DNA of 64,000 nt from Oscillatoria nigro-viridis PCC 7112. GTDB lineage: Bacteria; Cyanobacteriota; Cyanobacteriia; Cyanobacteriales; Microcoleaceae. This document shows, in pieces, positions 3,099-63,110 of the stretch. The translations under genes and the position numbers were made by a program. The stretch's first letter is position 1. Every line of letters starts with the position of its first letter. The DNA is taken from positions 4,788,501-4,852,500 of the forward strand of contig NC_019729.1 in assembly GCF_000317475.1 (NCBI RefSeq). The letters are read 5' to 3'. The notes under the pieces are model-generated. The model saw nothing but the letters and a program-made list of their open reading frames with translations. It had not been told where the DNA came from and ran no database searches.

Positions 3099-3103
3099 GG
3101 CTT

Positions 3104-3138
3104 GAGCCGGATGAGTGCGAAAGTCTCATGTCCGGTTC
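3104..3138 (+). ncRNA. Group II intron domain V hairpin
   Basis: GAGCCGGATGAGTGCGAAAG followed by the complementary arm TCTCATGTCCGGTTC makes the 34-35 nt catalytic domain V stem-loop with its GCGAAA-type loop. It lies six bases after the maturase stop codon, as expected. A shorter hairpin for domain VI follows up to about 3179. Confidence 0.9.
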
Positions 3139-3227
3139 TTAGGGGAGGGGAAAGGGGCGACCCTCGAACCTTACCCGACTAATTGGTCGCTCGGTGTTCA
3201 GAGTACACAAACTAGAGCAGAGCATGA

Positions 3228-49407: not shown

Positions 49408-49483
49408 ATTTTTTTTTGATGAATCGACATTACCAACATAACTTTTTTCCAAAAAGGCGGCAAGTGCGGTATGATGTGATTTC

Positions 49484-49605
<122 letters not shown>

Positions 49606-49640
49606 TCTAACTCACTTTTGAACGCATCTGCGAGGTACGG

Positions 49641-56997: not shown

Positions 56998-57012
56998 CAA
57001 TAATGATTATCG
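56998..57012. promoter_or_regulatory. Zur-like box between znuC and znuA
   Basis: CAATAATGATTATCG matches 12 of 14 fixed positions of TGATAATNATTATCA. It lies 61 bp before znuC and 15 bp before the chosen znuA start, so one site could repress both directions when zinc is sufficient. Confidence 0.8.
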
Positions 57013-57026
57013 TTCCAAAGGTGAAA

Positions 57027-58103
57027 ATGTTAAAGAACTGGGCTGGAAAAACTGGCAGATTGTGCGGTGCGGCTGTTTTGGCAATTGGCTGCGGGCTGGT
57101 TGGCTGCAGTGGAGGACAGAACGCCAGCAATCGGGCGCCAGAGAGTCCCGCCGCCACTCAAACTCAAGCCAGTCGGGCCGCCAACTTGCCCAAAGTCGTC
57201 GCCACGACTGGCGTTATCTGCGACATAACTAAAGAAATCGCTCAAAGTTCGATCGACACCACCTGTCTAATTAAGCCGGGAGACGACCCCCACGCCTACC
57301 AAACCAAGCCGGAAGACCGCAAAGCGATTGAAACAGCAAATCTGATTTTATACGGCGGCTACAACCACGAACCCAGCATCATTAAGTTAATTGAATCTAG
57401 CAGTAATTCCGCACCCAAAATCGCCGTACACGAACTCGCCGTTCCCAAACCGCTGATGGGCAAAGACGAGCACGAGCACGGCGAAGAGAAAGGGGAAAAC
57501 CAACCCCATGCAGAAGGCGAAAAAGTCCCTGACCCTCACGTTTGGCATAACCCTCAAAATGGCATCCGTATGGTAGAAACAATTCGGGATGAATTGATAA
57601 AAGTTTCCCCCGCCAATGCTCAACTTTATACAAAAAATGCAGCAAGCTTAACAGATGAGTTGCAAAAAATAGATACTTGGATCAAAGCTCAAATTGCGAC
57701 TATTCCAGCCCAAAAACGGAAGTTAGTAACAACTCACGATGCTCTGAGTTACTATGCCGATGCTTACGGTTTGGAGATGGCTGGAGCTTTGCAGGGCGTG
57801 ACGACAGAGGAACAGCCCACCGCCGCAAGAATTGCCGAATTGTCCTCAGAAATTAAGACTGCAGGAGTGCCGACAATTTTTGCCGAAACTACAACTAATC
57901 CGAAGTTGATGGAGACTGTGGCGAGGGAGGCAAATGTCGAAATTTCGGACAAAAAGCTTTACAGCGACGAGTTGGGCGGCCCCGGCACCGGTGCTGATAC
58001 ATATCAGGGAATGCTGAAAACTAATACTTGCGCGATTATTTCTGGCCTCGGCGGCAATTGTACTTCGTTTGCAGGAGAAACTGCACCAAATCCCAAACCC
58101 TAG
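57027..58103 (+). CDS. znuA: Zinc ABC transporter substrate-binding lipoprotein (ZnuA-type)
   Basis: A 358-residue periplasmic metal-binding protein of cluster A-I. A lipoprotein signal (CGAAVLAIGCGLVGC, lipobox LVGC) starts the chain. The metal ligands are His in DDPHAYQTK, His in DPHVWHNP, His or Asp in LVTTHDALSYYADAYGL, and the C-terminal DTYQGML region. A His/Glu-rich loop (DEHEHGEEKGENQPHAEGE) near residue 150 marks zinc-type proteins. I use the ATG at 57027, which has AAGGTGAAA before it; the upstream ATG at 57003 lies within the Zur-like box. Confidence 0.94.
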   Translation: MLKNWAGKTGRLCGAAVLAIGCGLVGCSGGQNASNRAPESPAATQTQASRAANLPKVVATTGVICDITKEIAQSSIDTTCLIKPGDDPHAYQTKPEDRKAIETANLILYGGYNHEPSIIKLIESSSNSAPKIAVHELAVPKPLMGKDEHEHGEEKGENQPHAEGEKVPDPHVWHNPQNGIRMVETIRDELIKVSPANAQLYTKNAASLTDELQKIDTWIKAQIATIPAQKRKLVTTHDALSYYADAYGLEMAGALQGVTTEEQPTAARIAELSSEIKTAGVPTIFAETTTNPKLMETVAREANVEISDKKLYSDELGGPGTGADTYQGMLKTNTCAIISGLGGNCTSFAGETAPNPKP

Positions 58104-58219
58104 ACTTTCTAAAGTTCGCCTACTAACAAGCACCTTACATTTGCTGGGTACGCAGCAAAACACAGCGCTCGCAATCGCAGGGGTTTTCGATTGGAAACGC
58201 TGCGTTTGCTGCGATGGCC

Positions 58220-58480
58220 TTAAGGTGAATTTTGCTCCTCGGTACTGGGGGGTTTTTGGCCAATTCCCAATTGCTTCTTAGAGGATTTTAAGTCTTTCCA
58301 AAGCATCTTAATATCTTTATAGGCTTTCTCAGCGCTAATTTTCCCCCCTGTTTCTAGCGAGCAAATATAAGTTATTTTTTGAGCAAACTCCTGCAAATTG
58401 GCATTAAACGCCAAGTTTTCTGGCGTGAAATCACCGTAGTAGCGATTGCGAGGATGTAAAAAATCTTCCCGCTCTTTCAT
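58220..58480 (-). CDS. Conserved cyanobacterial hypothetical protein (DUF7219-like)
   Basis: The 86-residue soluble protein (MKEREDFLHPRNRYYGDFTP, then FAQKITYICSLETGGKIS and a basic C-terminus) resembles a small family found widely in cyanobacteria and labelled DUF7219. No catalytic motif is seen. It is convergent with znuA, with about 116 bp between the stops. Function unknown. Confidence 0.75.
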   Translation of the reverse strand: MKEREDFLHPRNRYYGDFTPENLAFNANLQEFAQKITYICSLETGGKISAEKAYKDIKMLWKDLKSSKKQLGIGQKPPSTEEQNSP

Positions 58481-58686
58481 TGCCCCCTCCTAATTTAACT
58501 TTTGGTTTTCAACTTTTGGTTCGGTCTCTGCTGTTAATAGCACTATTTGTACTCACTATCGCGGCGCTAACTTGCTTCTATTGTATTGCGTAAGTAGCAA
58601 TTGTGCTTTTTCGCTCTGTATTTAGTCTATTAATGCAGTCTTAACCTTAAGTTAGCTTTATTTTAACTTTTCTTTAACCTAAAAGC

Positions 58687-58720
58687 AAAAAAAATGGGAA
58701 ATGCGCGGTTCGCATCTCCC
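58687..58720 (-). terminator. Intrinsic terminator behind smtA
   Basis: On the minus strand GGGAGATGCG, a five-base loop AACCG and CGCATTTCCC form a 10-bp stem with one G-U pair, followed by ATTTTTTTT. It lies about 50 bp beyond the smtA stop codon. Confidence 0.85.
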
Positions 58721-58769
58721 TTTAGATATATTTGGCAGTTGTTGATTAACCTTTTCTGAAGCCAAATAT

Positions 58770-58937
58770 TTATTTGTGGCACTCGCAGCCGGTGTGACCG
58801 CAGCCTTGGCCGTTGGGGTGGCCGTCAGCGCAAGCACTGGAACAGTATTGTTTGCCGTCTTTTTCAATGGCTTCGCTGACGTTGACAACGCACGAACATG
58901 AAGGACAGGCACATTTGGTTTGGGTGGCGGTAGTCAT
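58770..58937 (-). CDS. smtA: Metallothionein (SmtA family)
   Basis: A 55-residue cysteine-rich protein, too short for routine ORF calling. It starts MTTATQTKCACPSCSCVV and contains YCSSACADGHPNGQGCG followed by HTGCECHK. Its nine cysteines and the two central and C-terminal histidines match the SmtA/BmtA zinc-cluster proteins. It would bind zinc and other thiophilic metals in the cytoplasm. AGGAG lies ten bases before the ATG. The promoter region is shared with the divergent SmtB-like repressor and contains an inverted repeat of the SmtB type. Confidence 0.96.
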   Translation of the reverse strand: MTTATQTKCACPSCSCVVNVSEAIEKDGKQYCSSACADGHPNGQGCGHTGCECHK

Positions 58938-58980
58938 ACTTGAGATTCTCCTGGTGGGGTTGTTTGTCTTTACTAAAATC

Positions 58981-58994
58981 TGAACATATATTCA
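58981..58994. promoter_or_regulatory. SmtB-type operator between smtA and smtB
   Basis: TGAACATATATTCA is a near-perfect inverted repeat of the TGAAC/ATTCA form bound by SmtB, AztR and BxmR repressors. It is centred 50 bp from the smtA start and 65 bp from the smtB start. Confidence 0.8.
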
Positions 58995-59052
58995 TGTATA
59001 AGTCAAGGAAATGTAAAAGTTTTGTTACAAAAGGTTTGCCGATCGCACTAAA

Positions 59053-59493
59053 ATGAAAATGAGAATTAAAACTAGCCGGGAAAAGATGTCACCCAACTCT
59101 GCTGTTAATGGAGCGATAACTCAGCCTCACGAACAAAACGATACACCAATGTGCGATCGACCGCACCTAGTTGACAGCTTGCGGGCCGGGGACATCCAAA
59201 CACAGGTTCTCAACACCGCAAAAGCGCAGCGGATGGCTGAGTTTTTCAGTCTTTTGGGAGATGCGAATCGCCTGCGGCTGCTGTCGGTTTTGGCAAAACA
59301 AGAACTGTGCGTTTGTGACTTGGCTGCGGCGTTGAGTATGAGCGAGTCAGCAGTATCGCACCAGTTGCGGGCATTGCGGGCGATGCGTTTGGTAAGTTAC
59401 CGCAAGGTTGGGAGACAAGTTTTTTATAGTTTACTCGATCGCCACGTTTTTGAACTTTACCAAGCAGTCGCCGAACACTTAGACGAAACCTAA
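59053..59493 (+). CDS. smtB: ArsR/SmtB-family metal-sensing repressor (BxmR-like)
   Basis: The 146-residue winged-helix repressor should release DNA when metal binds. Both known site types are visible. An alpha3N-type thiolate site is built from Cys in TPMCDRPH and the two Cys in ELCVCDLA. An alpha5 zinc site has Asp, His, His and Glu spaced 0, 2, 13 and 16 in LLDRHVFELYQAVAEHLDE. Having both is the pattern of BxmR and AztR. The recognition helix is in SMSESAVSHQLRALRAM. It diverges from smtA around a shared operator. A start at the ATG at 59086, preceded by GGGAAAAG, is an alternative. Confidence 0.93.
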   Translation: MKMRIKTSREKMSPNSAVNGAITQPHEQNDTPMCDRPHLVDSLRAGDIQTQVLNTAKAQRMAEFFSLLGDANRLRLLSVLAKQELCVCDLAAALSMSESAVSHQLRALRAMRLVSYRKVGRQVFYSLLDRHVFELYQAVAEHLDET

Positions 59494-59495
59494 TA

Positions 59496-59696
59496 TTATT
59501 CTCCTTGGATGGTGTGGCCCGTAGCGACCACAGCTTGTTTGATTGACTCATCAGAAGCTTTGGCTTCCACCGTAACAGTCTTAGCCGTTATATCCACATT
59601 GACAGAAGCATCGGATTCAACAGTTTGGATGGCTTTGGTAATTGTATCACCGCAGCCAGAACAGACGATCGACGGAACTTTAAGTACCAGTGCCAT
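59496..59696 (-). CDS. Heavy-metal-associated (HMA) domain protein
   Basis: A 66-residue single-domain metallochaperone with metal-binding Cys12 and Cys15 in VPSIVCSGCGDTITKA and the ferredoxin-like HMA fold (VNVDITAKTVTVEA). The usual MxCxxC Met is replaced (SIVCSGC), so the metal may not be copper alone. The ATG at 59696 was preferred to a TTG four codons upstream. It is convergent with the smtB-like gene, two bases apart, which fits a metal-handling locus. Confidence 0.88.
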   Translation of the reverse strand: MALVLKVPSIVCSGCGDTITKAIQTVESDASVNVDITAKTVTVEAKASDESIKQAVVATGHTIQGE

Positions 59697-59843
59697 AATA
59701 AAAGCCAAATATTGTAGATGACAGTATTGATTGTGCTTTTATTTTAATCTAATTTCGCTTTCCAAGCAAAAGTGCGCCAGAATAAATTCTGACGCTACAA
59801 AAAGTAACTCTTCCGGCGCAGACTAATAATTAATAACTGATGA

Positions 59844-60662
59844 CTAATGACTGATGACTAATGACTTAGTATCTGGTATGCACCGCCCAACGGCGGCGGC
59901 TACAGGCCGCAAACTCGCAACTAAATCAACCATATCTGGTAAAGAAAGAGCTTGCCGCGCGTCAGAAACGGATTTTTCCGGTTGCGGGTGACATTCAATA
60001 ATTAATCCGTCTGCACCGCAAGCAACCGCTGCTTTGGCTAGTGGTGCGACTAATTCTCGCTTGCCTACGGCGTGAGAAGGGTCTACTATTACTGGCAAAT
60101 GAGTTAACTGTTTTAGCGCTGCGACTGCACCTAAATCTAATACGTTTCGGGTGTAATTGTCGAAGCTGCGGATGCCTCTTTCGCACAGAACTACATGAGG
60201 ATTTCCGTGACTGAGAATGTATTCGGCGGCCATCACAAATTCTTCGATTGTGGCTGACAAGCCGCGTTTTAGCAGGACTGGTTTTCCGGCTTGACCGATC
60301 GCCTTTAGCAACTCGAAGTTTTGCATATTCCGACTGCCTAGTTGCAGCATATCAGCATAGGTGACAACTGGCTCGATTTGGGCGATCGACATTACCTCTG
60401 TCACGACGGGCAAACCGTAACGCCGGCTGACATCGGCTAAAATTTCGAGTCCCTCAATGCCCATGCCTTGGAAAGCATAGGGAGATGTGCGGGGTTTGTA
60501 GACTCCGCCCCGCAAAGCTTGCACGGATGTGGCGGATAGTTGGCGGGCGACTGTTTCCATTTGTGCGGAACTTTCGACGGTACAGGGGCCGCCGATGATT
60601 AGTAATTCTTGGCCGCCGACTGAGACTGTTTCTGAGAGTTGGACAATTGTCTGGTGTTCGGG
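59844..60662 (-). pseudogene. aroF: 3-deoxy-7-phosphoheptulonate (DAHP) synthase, 3' part split by IS607
   Basis: This part encodes the DAHP synthase barrel that joins phosphoenolpyruvate and erythrose 4-phosphate, the first step of aromatic amino-acid synthesis. It includes LLIIGGPCTVES, GGVYKPRTSPYAFQG, VLLKRG, LCERGIRSF, DPSHAVGKRELV and IIECHPQPEKSVSDARQ. The frame is open from GAA at 60659 but its start codon lies on the other side of the insertion, at 62701. Rejoining the parts gives a 283-residue protein with no gap. An internal ATG at 60560 leaves a 238-residue product that lacks the GGPC metal site. The last residues (SLVISH) are encoded by an STRR array. Confidence 0.9.
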
Positions 60663-60751
60663 TGAGGCGCTGAAATAGATTTCTTAGACAGGTATTGACA
60701 TTCTTCCCGGATTGGGTAACTATTGAGTTGTAGTATTAGAGGTAAGCAACT

Positions 60752-61393
60752 TTGGAGACTCAATCAGACGTGACACTCTCAATCGGGGAAGCGGCTAAGG
60801 AGCTTGGTATTTCGACAAAGACGCTGAGACGCTGGACTGATGCAGGCAAGATTAAGTTTGAGCGCTCTCCCACGGGACAGAGACGCTTCTACCTTACCGA
60901 TATCAAGCGAATTACTCCCAGAGACTTAAACCAGGCAGACGATCGAATCACTATCAACTATGCCAGAGTTTCTAGTCATGACCAAAAAGAAGATTTAAAG
61001 CGTCAAGCTGCTGTTTTGGAATCGTTTAGCGCTGCCAATGGCTGGCAATTTGAAACAATTCAAGACTTAGGCTCTGGACTTAATTACAAGAAAAAAGGAC
61101 TGACAAAACTACTCAAACGAATCATGTCCGGTGAGGTTGGCAGACTTGTTGTTACTCACAAAGACAGGCTTCTAAGGTTTGGTTCCGAGTTAGTTTTCGC
61201 AATGTGTGAGGAATTTGAATGCGAGGTAGTAATAGTCAATAAATCGCCGGATGAATTGAGTTTTGAACAGGAATTAGTTCAAGATATGATTGAATTAATT
61301 CAGGTTTTTAGCGCTAGACTTTATGGCGCTAGAAGTCACAAAAACAAAAAACTGATTGATGGTATAGCTAAAGCAGTGGAGGACGTAAAATAA
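60752..61393 (+). CDS. tnpA: IS607 transposase TnpA (serine recombinase with MerR-like HTH)
   Basis: A 213-residue serine recombinase that catalyses excision and integration. The N-terminal helix-turn-helix (LSIGEAAKELGISTKTLRRW, residues 8-60) binds DNA. The catalytic domain begins with INYARVSSHDQKEDLKRQ, where the nucleophile is the Ser in ARVSS near 76, and continues with VVTHKDRLLRFG. The start is TTG at 60752, eight bases after AGAGGT. The stop codon overlaps the tnpB start (TAATG). Confidence 0.93.
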   Translation: METQSDVTLSIGEAAKELGISTKTLRRWTDAGKIKFERSPTGQRRFYLTDIKRITPRDLNQADDRITINYARVSSHDQKEDLKRQAAVLESFSAANGWQFETIQDLGSGLNYKKKGLTKLLKRIMSGEVGRLVVTHKDRLLRFGSELVFAMCEEFECEVVIVNKSPDELSFEQELVQDMIELIQVFSARLYGARSHKNKKLIDGIAKAVEDVK

Positions 61394-62520
61394 TGCTACT
61401 CAGTTTCAAGACGGAATTAAAACCTAACAATAGACAGGTGACTCTATTCCGTCAACACTGTGGAGTAGCCAGACACGCTTACAATTTTGGCAATGCTATT
61501 ATTCAGGAAGCTTTACAACTTAGAGAGGCTGATAAAACAATCAAAATTCCCTCTGCTATTGACTTGCACAAACGTCTAGTCGCTGAGATTAAACCAGCTA
61601 ATCCCTGGTATTATCAAAGCTCCAAAGCAAGTCCACAACAGGCTCTGGCAGAGGTAAGGACGGCATGGGATAGATGCTTCAAAAAAGTCTCTAAACAGCC
61701 TAGATTCAAGAAGAAAGGCAAGTCTAAAGACAGTTTTTATCTTGAGCAAGGCACTAAAGCAAAACCTGGTATCAGCAATGATGGTAAGCGAGTTAAACTC
61801 CCTAAAATTGGTTGGGTGCGATTGCACGAACCTCTCCCCATTACGGCTACTCATAATTGCGTAATTAGTCGCACTGCCGACAAATGGTTCATAGCCATCA
61901 AGTATGAGATTGAACAGCCACCAATACCTCTAAATCGCCCCTCTATTGGTGTTGATATTGGTATTAAGGAATTAGCTGTCACCAGTGACGGAAAGGTTTT
62001 TGCTAACCCCAAAGCTTACCGCAAAATGAGTAAGAAAATGAAGCGATTGCAGCGCTCTGTTAGTCGCAAAGTTAAAGGCTCAAAGAACAGAACTAAGGCA
62101 GTTAGAAAGCTGGCAAAACTGCATTCTAGAATTTCATTCATCCGCAAAGATGCTATTCATAAACTCACCAATCATCTCGCTAAAAACCACAGCGTGATTA
62201 AAATTGAGAATTTGAACGTCAAAGCATTTTTGAAAAATCACAAATTGGCGGGTGCGATTGCCGATTGTGGAATGTACGAATTTAAGCGACAACTTGAATA
62301 TAAAACTGAGAAATTTTCTAGTCAGTTGATTTTAGTTGACCGCTTCTTTCCTAGTTCTCAAATCTGTTCAAATTGTAGGAATCACCGCCACAAAATGCCA
62401 TTAAAGAATCGAGTCTATGTATGTCCTGATTGCGGTCATACAGAGGACAGAGACTTGAACGCAGCTAAAAACATTGAGCGATGGTTTGAAGGAATTCACA
62501 TTCCGATTCGCTCAGATTAA
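61393..62520 (+). CDS. tnpB: TnpB RNA-guided nuclease of IS607
   Basis: A 375-residue TnpB, ancestor-type relative of Cas12. RuvC acidic residues are in IGVDIGIKELAVTSDG (Asp near 190), in VIKIENLNVKAF (Glu near 274) and in DRDLNAAKNIERW (Asp near the end). The zinc finger is CSNCRNHRHKMP with CPDCGH. All catalytic residues are present, so the protein should be active. It is translationally coupled to tnpA. Its guide RNA is expected from the element's right end. Confidence 0.94.
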   Translation: MLLSFKTELKPNNRQVTLFRQHCGVARHAYNFGNAIIQEALQLREADKTIKIPSAIDLHKRLVAEIKPANPWYYQSSKASPQQALAEVRTAWDRCFKKVSKQPRFKKKGKSKDSFYLEQGTKAKPGISNDGKRVKLPKIGWVRLHEPLPITATHNCVISRTADKWFIAIKYEIEQPPIPLNRPSIGVDIGIKELAVTSDGKVFANPKAYRKMSKKMKRLQRSVSRKVKGSKNRTKAVRKLAKLHSRISFIRKDAIHKLTNHLAKNHSVIKIENLNVKAFLKNHKLAGAIADCGMYEFKRQLEYKTEKFSSQLILVDRFFPSSQICSNCRNHRHKMPLKNRVYVCPDCGHTEDRDLNAAKNIERWFEGIHIPIRSD

Positions 62521-62668
62521 GTAAGTCAAACGGTAAGCTCTACCGAGATTGCCTGTGGAGTAGGCAAACCCTTAGAAGTCATTCTGAGACTACGCTGAAA
62601 CAGGAAGTAAACACTAAAGTCCAAAACTTTCGAGCAATGGGTAGCTTTGGGTAAGTTTTATAGAGCGG
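62521..62668 (+). ncRNA. Probable omega RNA (reRNA) at the right end of IS607
   Basis: In TnpB-carrying elements the RNA scaffold spans the 3' end of tnpB and the element's right end, and the flanking host sequence acts as guide. Here 148 non-coding bases follow tnpB and can fold (GCCTGTGGAGTAGGC is a hairpin). The guide would read from 62669 into aroF, starting ATGAGATTTGG. This is inferred from family knowledge; ends are approximate. Confidence 0.55.
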
Positions 62669-62701
62669 ATGAGATTTGGTTGCGAGTTTGGCTTCTAACA
62701 T
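62669..62701 (-). pseudogene. aroF: aroF 5' fragment (start codon and first 11 codons)
   Basis: The ATG at 62701 has GGAG nine bases upstream. The codons read MLEAKLATKSH and then meet the IS607 end; the next codon, Pro, is completed by the other side at 60662. This N-terminus is typical of the short cyanobacterial DAHP synthases (..KLATKSHP-HQTIVQL). Transcripts from the leader now read into the antisense side of IS607. Confidence 0.85.
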
Positions 62702-62741
62702 GAGGGAATTCTCCGGGAAATTTAAGTGGGTGGTTGAAAAC

Positions 62742-62773
62742 AAAAAACCCGGAACTTTTAGGAGTTCCGGGTT
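62742..62773 (-). terminator. Proximal attenuator terminator of the aroF leader
   Basis: On the minus strand AACCCGGAACT, a short CCTAAA loop and AGTTCCGGGTT form an 11-bp perfect stem followed by TTTT. It ends 41 bases before the aroF ATG. Its 5' arm is the partner of the antiterminator sequence inside the second leader ORF. Confidence 0.9.
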
Positions 62774-62797
62774 GGTGCGAAAAGACAGCGCGACAAT

Positions 62798-62860
62798 TTA
62801 CCCAGAACTCTTGTTGGGCCAAAAATAAAAGCTGTTGTGCCAGTTACTGAATAATGTCAT
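62798..62860 (-). CDS. aroF leader peptide, proximal (20 residues, core NSFYFWP)
   Basis: The ORF from the ATG at 62860 to TAA encodes MTLFSNWHNSFYFWPNKSSG. It has three Phe, one Tyr and two Trp in 20 residues, with FYFW at positions 11-14. The last codons (AGT TCT GGG) form the antiterminator arm. The core aligns with NSYFYFW of the distal leader, showing that the two arose by duplication and have kept their aromatic codons. No strong ribosome binding site is visible. Confidence 0.8.
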   Translation of the reverse strand: MTLFSNWHNSFYFWPNKSSG

Positions 62861-62904
62861 CGGTGTTTTCGCTTGTGCTCGATTGGTTGTTGGGAAAAGA
62901 AGTA

Positions 62905-62938
62905 GAAAAAACAAAACCGCAGGTGTTAATCTGCGGTT
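62905..62938 (-). terminator. Distal attenuator terminator of the aroF leader
   Basis: On the minus strand AACCGCAG, an eight-base loop ATTAACAC and CTGCGGTT form an 8-bp perfect stem followed by TTGTTTTTT. It ends the first attenuator unit about 170 bases after the predicted transcription start. Confidence 0.88.
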
Positions 62939-62967
62939 CGCCTGGATGTTCACAGTGAATTACCAAT

Positions 62968-63036
62968 TCACTCCGGGCGAACTTGGCTGCACCAAAAATA
63001 AAAATAGCTGTTGGCTGTGAACTTCGCTGTGAACAT
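62968..63036 (-). CDS. aroF leader peptide, distal (22 residues, core NSYFYFW)
   Basis: The ORF from the ATG at 63036 to TGA encodes MFTAKFTA, then NSYFYFW and CSQVRPE. Seven of its 22 residues are aromatic (four Phe, two Tyr, one Trp), with five in a row at positions 11-15. The Val-Arg-Pro codons form the antiterminator arm. The start-codon region ATGTTCACAG can pair over 10 bp with CTGTGAACAT at 62946-62955, which may control initiation. It begins about 40 bases after the predicted transcription start. Confidence 0.82.
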   Translation of the reverse strand: MFTAKFTANSYFYFWCSQVRPE

Positions 63037-63081
63037 AGGTGAAGTGCTGCGATTTGTGGATTAAACACAATACTATTCGAT

Positions 63082-63110
63082 AACCTAGCACAGAGTGGTA
63101 GGAATGTCAA
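63082..63110 (-). promoter_or_regulatory. Sigma-70-type promoter of the aroF leader
   Basis: On the minus strand TTGACA (63110-63105), a 17-bp spacer and TAGGTT (63087-63082), preceded by TGC as an extended -10. This is the best consensus promoter in the window. Transcription should start near 63076 and run through both attenuators to aroF. Confidence 0.88.

Follow-up and report, generated by a model that had tools for sequence, protein, structure and literature searches.

In cyanobacteria that carry this DAHP synthase gene, aroF, the gene is typically preceded by two short leader ORFs with runs of aromatic codons, each with its own intrinsic terminator, and we are highly confident that this leader is a real tandem ribosome-mediated transcription attenuator reading Phe, Tyr and Trp codons. 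The predicted tandem attenuator is typical of cyanobacteria with this aroF. It was recognised in a window of 64,000 nucleotides of Oscillatoria nigro-viridis PCC 7112, the window being the whole stretch of DNA analysed. The initial annotation had the F/Y/W attenuators control a DAHP synthase; the design proved to be conserved and covarying, but aroF is broken in this genome.

On the minus strand of the window, the order is promoter, leader ORF 1, terminator 1, leader ORF 2, terminator 2 and the ATG of aroF (Table 1). The promoter, both leader ORFs with their aromatic runs and both terminators were found by sequence and script as they had been claimed, and the ATG of aroF was also present, at 62701-62699 and not at 62702. 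The last TGG and the antiterminator arm are nine bases apart in units 1 and 2 alike, and the pairing annotated for the proximal unit (10 bp) and the distal unit (7 bp) was likewise confirmed. The arm of unit 2 forms 10 bp with its partner, one of them G-U, and the arm of unit 1 forms 7 bp, followed by 3 bp past one C-A mismatch. Terminators 1 and 2 had the most pairs among the four terminator sites on the minus strand, and the two strands together held 7 such sites against a mean of 1.8 in shuffles. A simple promoter scan of the window did not list the promoter, whose TAGGTT agrees with TATAAT at 3 of 6 positions.

Table 1. Features of the leader, the interrupted aroF and other elements in the window
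Feature	Position	Strand	Details
Promoter	63082..63110	-	TTGACA 63110-63105, 17-nt spacer ending TGC, TAGGTT 63087-63082
Leader ORF 1	62968..63036	-	22 codons, MFTAKFTANSYFYFWCSQVRPE*, contains NSYFYFW
Antiterminator arm, unit 1	62976..62982	-	GTTCGCC; reaches 62972 across one mismatch
Partner of arm 1	62936..62942	-	GGCGAAC; overlaps 5' side of terminator 1
Intrinsic terminator 1	62906..62939	-	Stem 62939-62914, then T-rich tail
Leader ORF 2	62798..62860	-	20 codons, MTLFSNWHNSFYFWPNKSSG*, contains NSFYFW
Antiterminator arm, unit 2	62800..62809	-	AGTTCTGGGT; runs into stop codon
Partner of arm 2	62763..62772	-	ACCCGGAACT; doubles as 5' side of terminator 2
Intrinsic terminator 2	62738..62773	-	Stem 62773-62746, then T-rich tail
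aroF 5' remnant	62667..62701	-	11 codons and two bases; reads into the element as a 40-codon ORF, stop near 62579
IS607-like element	60662..62666	+	About 2.0 kb; each junction has a GG/CC dinucleotide
Serine recombinase with MerR-type head	60752-61393	+	Inside the IS607-like element
TnpB	61393-62520	+	Inside the IS607-like element
aroF 3' remainder	59844..60661	-	Type I DAHP synthase (PF00793); lacks a usual start codon ahead of the GPC motif
Cobalamin riboswitch	49472-49618	+	Rfam match, RF00174
Group II intron	3102-3179	+	Rfam match, RF00029

The aroF gene of the window is split after codon 11 by an IS607-like element, a break that is absent from the initial annotation. The element was assigned by its recombinase with MerR-type head, its TnpB and the GG at its junctions, which together we take to define IS607. 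The 3' part of aroF holds no ATG, GTG or TTG ahead of the GPC motif, which is presumably part of the active site of DAHP synthases; because the first start codon, an ATG at 60560, falls behind this motif, a working product from the 3' part is unlikely. No Rfam match was obtained for a group I intron (IStron) able to rescue aroF. The gene is uninterrupted in relatives with 95-96% DNA identity. Since the element splits the gene after codon 11, the leaders control no working aroF here and, judged from the sequence, drive nothing functional, the intact device being an orphaned regulator in this genome. Five full copies of the element, including the one in aroF, were each listed at 100% identity in the genome together with one copy split in two, and because of this identity the element was probably active recently.

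For this strain, it is fairly probable that the leader is a relic, functional in an ancestor and kept by inertia now that aroF is dead. The insertion past codon 11, the near-identical element copies elsewhere and an intact second DAHP synthase in the same genome all point to this reading, and so do two details of the leader itself: leader 2 of the window reads NWHNSFYFW in place of the NWYYGFYFW or NWYYSFYFW of most relatives and has thus lost two aromatic residues, and the unit-1 antiterminator mismatch, which is absent from most close relatives, shortens the helix of the window. Against it, units 1 and 2 score 75.1 and 77.5 bits with covariance models built from the two units, the promoter and terminators are whole, and the insertion might still be able to revert or be absent from part of the population. 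Because the units score so highly and promoter and terminators are whole, the loss of aroF is probably recent. The relic reading concerns this strain and is compatible with the attenuator explanation. At another locus of the same order (L239, genome G176; 4001 bases), leader 1 MFSSRSYFYFWFRVVHWE is intact beside a degenerate aroF remnant. Since this is a second decaying aroF, loss of this isozyme probably happened more than once.

The search for orthologues of this aroF covered 29 genomes at the level of the genus, 61 at that of the family and 291 at that of the class. Within the genus, two leader ORFs were found at 16 of the 17 orthologous loci of other genomes (L004-L020). The exception, L004, is without a leader ORF. 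It keeps the 3' half of leader 2 together with the terminator of this unit, but the start codon and the region upstream are replaced by other DNA, the end of which we take to resemble the terminus of a mobile element. The aroF gene itself is intact in this congener (G025). In the family, all 12 further loci (L033-L044) had two or more leader ORFs. The class sample comprised 106 near-full-length aroF orthologues including the window's own, and counts refer to the other 105, of which 94 had at least two aromatic leader ORFs and 11 had one; the ORF detector overcounts, giving three ORFs at 6 of the 105 loci, some of them spurious. Covariance models R1 and R2, built from unit 1 and unit 2 respectively, showed both units at six of the 11 single-ORF loci (L060, L061, L152, L159, L166 and L170). 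By ORF or model, both units are present in 100 of the 105 orthologues and one unit in five, which is unit 2 at L213 and unit 1 at L221 and L225-L227. The aromatic ORFs and terminators expected by the initial annotation upstream of related aroF genes, and the conservation of aromatic codons and stems, were therefore found across the class genomes with this aroF. A peptide classifier mislabelled several true pairs, and the counts rest on ORFs and models instead.

Searching the 291 class genomes with R2 gave one match in each of 105 genomes, spanning 59 of 130 genera. By coordinates, 102 of the 105 matches lie ahead of the orthologue at a distance of 152-305 nt (2178 nt in the window, where the element intervenes). 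For the remaining three, aroF is downstream in the fetched DNA of G169 and G320, and the contig of G187 ends just past unit 2; an R2 match before aroF was seen in 104 of the 105 genomes. The orthologue-bearing genomes missed by R2 (G070, G105, G141 and G153) carry unit 1 only. R1 matched 25 genomes of a 194-genome phylum sample, once each, 18 before aroF by coordinates, six by fetched DNA and one (G176) before the aroF remnant. With 21 (R1, phylum) and 14 (R2, class) candidates scored per genome, these searches are not exhaustive. Most of the remaining class sample lacks this aroF, and the device accordingly has the same patchy distribution as the gene. In the genome of the window, R1 had a single match and no use of the leader unit for other genes was found; R2 had one strong match and five weak ones (E 0.01-0.7), one of which is the opposite strand of the same place.

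Named species representatives (Nostoc, Calothrix, Scytonema, Leptolyngbya, Phormidesmis and others) were the best 80 of 566 candidates and are biased toward near relatives. Among the 77 with enough upstream DNA, two or more ORFs were found in 68, one in 8 and none in 1, and the models revealed both units in seven of these nine others, including the ORF-less L118, and unit 1 only in L137 and L146. A Nostoc punctiforme strain (L099) is among those with the pair. The class and named locus sets share genomes, and counts across them must not be summed. One of the two ORFs at L143 looks spurious, with an R2 match only, and L209 has two ORFs yet only R2 matches. Through either binning error or transfer, aroF and its leader are also present on three contigs named as Obscuribacter or Melainabacteria MAGs (L124, L137 and L146), the last two having unit 1 only.

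The promoter is conserved with the leader. TTGAC, 16-18 nt and TAnnnT were found upstream of leader 1 in all 31 aligned relatives, with a spacing of 17 nt in 16/16 of the genus and the pattern out of register in one other, L084. Over all unit-1 loci, the pattern was present in 174 of 187 and missing in 13. Phe, Tyr and Trp were all present in 160 of 162 distinct unit-1 leaders and in 140 of 143 distinct unit-2 leaders.

For the analysis of pairing, units past a terminator-score filter were aligned, one per cluster and with the window added (A2, 75 of 187 unit-1 sequences; A3, 70 of 166 unit-2 sequences). The 54 ORFs left out of the alignment and geometry counts were nine fitting neither type and 45 of 409 without a terminator score of 15 or more, the latter including genuine unit-2 leaders whose hairpins are weak or unusual, as well as spurious ORFs. 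In the unit-1 antiterminator (76 sequences), 87.4% of cells were paired and two-sided changes occurred in 7 of 13 pairs; 75 cells were two-sided against 26.0 in shuffles, and slid versions paired at most 47.6%. In the unit-2 antiterminator (71 sequences), 83.6% of cells were paired and two-sided changes occurred in 5 of 11 pairs, with 52 two-sided cells against 23.3 in shuffles. Its paired cells and score were also above shuffles, but neither the count of two-sided pairs, which 316 of 500 shuffles reached, nor the number of pair types, which 301 of 500 reached, stood out. Terminator 1 was paired in 96.9% of cells with two-sided changes in 3 of 8 pairs, and terminator 2 in 91.5% with two-sided changes in 6 of 11, these pairing values being biased upward by the selection of units for having a terminator. 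Covariation of the antiterminator and terminator stems, which had been suggested as a check, was thus found in both units, with two-sided changes in 3-7 pairs each. Column 84 of A3 showed two-sided changes both with column 24 in the antiterminator and with column 99 in the terminator, and the partner of the arm overlapped the 5' stem of the terminator in 154 of the 162 distinct sequences for unit 1 and in 140 of the 143 for unit 2. One arm is predicted to have two mutually exclusive partners, the antiterminator and the terminator.

These data bear on the possibility that the short ORFs act on translation, by reinitiation or peptide function, with incidental terminators. The peptides are indeed conserved, and translation-raising leader ORFs have been proposed before (PMC4833913), but past the aromatic run base pairing is kept with two-sided changes, and a terminator with a score of 15 or more lies behind 364 of the 409 detected ORFs, which makes this explanation improbable.

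Specificity was examined with the same detector. In 76 orthologous class upstream regions, two or more aromatic-cluster ORFs were found in 67 and one in 9, and the opposite strand of the same 76 regions had none. Among 1520 dinucleotide shuffles, two or more ORFs appeared in 9 and one in 115, and a single such ORF was present in 10 of 374 window tiles. R1 and R2 gave no match at 17 other DAHP synthase loci (13 of the genus and four more distant). At 13 genus loci of the paralogous DAHP synthase there was no detector match, a looser setting giving short ORFs in 4 of 13, and one of the four distant DAHP synthases had two TTG-started ORFs in 1500 bases. It is very unlikely that a metabolite- or tRNA-binding element, such as a riboswitch or T-box, controls the terminators beside coincidental ORFs: terminator/antiterminator pairs are common there too, but at least one aromatic leader ORF was present in 105 of 105 class orthologues and two or more were rare in the shuffles. 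A riboswitch or T-box was rejected, as no Rfam family reached its gathering score in the leader in a search that recovered the cobalamin riboswitch elsewhere in the window. Chance, by which T-rich DNA yields codons for the three aromatic residues and terminators occur commonly, fits the T-rich run and the single ORFs seen in tiles and shuffles, but has next to no probability given one R2 match per genome, nearly always before aroF, and the conserved order and spacing, and was refuted by the shuffle, strand and tile controls and the covariation.

The geometry of the tandem attenuator was similar among relatives. In unit 1, 143 of 162 sequences have an arm that begins 3-7 nt past the last aromatic codon, and 157 of 162 one that ends 2-9 nt ahead of the end of the stop codon; the corresponding distances in unit 2 are 7-13 nt (126 of 143 sequences) and 2 nt (115 of 143). 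Nascent RNA of the window was folded with nine bases past the stalled Trp codon masked and the 3' half of the terminator absent. The fold with a stalled ribosome was in silico the antiterminator, at -19.1 kcal/mol in unit 1 and -15.4 kcal/mol in unit 2, and when the ribosome was placed at the stop codon, the terminators were the only folds left in silico (-15.3 and -17.6 kcal/mol). In the full-length RNA of the window at equilibrium, the terminator out-competes the antiterminator; therefore, the switch must be kinetic and decided during transcription, as in known attenuators. Unit 1 also has a conserved 5-bp hairpin, formed by the arm with the GUGA that holds the leader stop codon (A2 columns 29-33/39-43), which shows no two-sided changes and is possibly a protector, the 1:2 hairpin by which attenuators favour termination when the leader is not translated. 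No protector hairpin was found in the unit-2 alignment.

The leader thus has codons for the end products, a terminator before the gene, an exclusive antiterminator and, in silico, an arm spaced so that it is free during a stall on the control codons and masked by the ribosome at the stop codon. From anatomy, order, conservation, covariation, geometry and nascent-RNA folding, we infer stalling, readthrough and the amino-acid response as follows. RNA polymerase would start at the promoter and meet the two units in series, and in each unit a ribosome would translate the short ORF with its Phe, Tyr and Trp codons. With an ample supply of all three charged tRNAs, the ribosome would reach the stop codon and cover the arm, which lies next to this codon or across it, and the terminator hairpin would form. 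When any one charged tRNA is scarce, the ribosome would stall in the F-Y-F-W run and leave free the arm, which lies a few bases downstream; the free arm would pair with the terminator's 5' half while its 3' half is still to be transcribed, and the polymerase would read on. As aroF would be transcribed only after both units are passed, repression would multiply. The mechanism assumes transcription-translation coupling in cyanobacteria. Because nearly all leaders hold all three residues, shortage of any one amino acid should suffice. The idea of the initial annotation that the leader reads the pooled level of the aromatic amino acids is probably wrong, as stalling at any single tRNA shortage would amount to an OR for derepression and not to a sum.

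The two DAHP synthase isozymes differ in their domains. The attenuated enzyme, represented by the intact orthologue L007, matches TIGR01361 and PF00793 above cut-off and is a bare PF00793 enzyme, and the paralogue L001 has an N-terminal ferredoxin-like domain, PF18152, that is absent from the attenuated enzyme. The second DAHP synthase of the genus (L001 and L021-L032) is without a leader, PF18152 having been shown on L001. The ferredoxin-like domain mediates feedback inhibition in the DAHP synthase of Thermotoga, and bare archaeal DAHP synthases are not known to be feedback-inhibited. Regulation of the isozymes seems to be divided between RNA control of the bare enzyme and protein control through the ferredoxin-like domain, and the leader suggests a reason why an allosteric domain is dispensable in one isozyme.

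The enteric leaders pheL-pheA and trpL-trpEDCBA have one unit, sense one amino acid per leader and control a branch pathway, not the entry enzyme. They share with the cyanobacterial leader the control codons, the exclusive antiterminator and terminator and the dependence on ribosome position, whereas the cyanobacterial leader has three amino acids, two units and a pathway-entry enzyme. In Salmonella mgtCBR, two leader ORFs reportedly sense different signals, whereas both cyanobacterial ORFs would read the same three amino acids, each with its own terminator. Tandem leader-ORF attenuators are known from mgtCBR (PMC3641672), a magnesium-transport and virulence operon. A further related system is the C. 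glutamicum AroR leader with Phe-Tyr-Phe before aroF (Neshat et al. 2014, as described in PMC11802643 and PMC4046766), reported to be induced under Phe limitation (PMC11802643, PMC4046766). It is likewise an aromatic leader peptide before a DAHP synthase gene with ribosome-mediated attenuation, but these accounts describe one leader, do not mention Trp and concern another phylum. The uORFC-13-1 motif upstream of Acholeplasma aroF is likewise a predicted uORF; it contains Phe codon(s) and stands next to a terminator (PMC8632094). It differs in being described from 24 sequences of one genus and environmental DNA, with at least one Phe and no mention of a tandem in that description. Two attenuator units are mentioned for the aromatic supraoperon of Streptococcus pneumoniae (PMC1173090).

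A leader-gene study of 2016 states that reliable data on how attenuation works in cyanobacteria do not exist (PMC4833913). Among the titles and abstracts listed in searches of open-access literature, we found no such attenuator in cyanobacteria; this agrees with the initial annotation, to which no aromatic attenuator was known from cyanobacteria, as does PMC4833913 for attenuation generally. Two serial gates for the same three amino acids were also not met in the open-access literature listings. A mixed F/Y/W tandem had been called unusual anywhere, which holds for the combination, although mixed aromatic leaders (C. glutamicum) and tandem leaders (mgtCBR) are known. What is unusual is the combination of a cyanobacterial host, a three-amino-acid run, two complete serial units and class-wide conservation. 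We consider it likely that ribosome-mediated attenuation exists in cyanobacteria in the form of old, class-wide serial three-amino-acid gates wherever this aroF occurs, with the isozymes split between RNA and protein control.

If the attenuator works as proposed, the entry enzyme of the shikimate pathway would be derepressed when any aromatic amino acid runs short, and tight transcription-translation coupling would be implied in cyanobacterial cells. The leader provides a concrete attenuation case in about 100 sampled cyanobacterial genomes and makes it testable whether cyanobacterial ribosomes trail RNA polymerase closely enough for attenuation; the positions of ribosomes and RNA polymerase in cyanobacterial cells are under study (PMC13378304). 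Two serial gates for the same amino acids would be a design for sharp or deep repression, and the leader makes a ready-made sensor available for the engineering of aromatic production.

Next to aroF, the region 57003-59708 encodes a zinc-binding protein of the ZnuA type together with a regulator of the ArsR family. It also includes a small ORF (59496-59708) that resembles, by eye, a metal-binding chaperone. These genes possibly form a metal-homeostasis cluster adjoining aroF.
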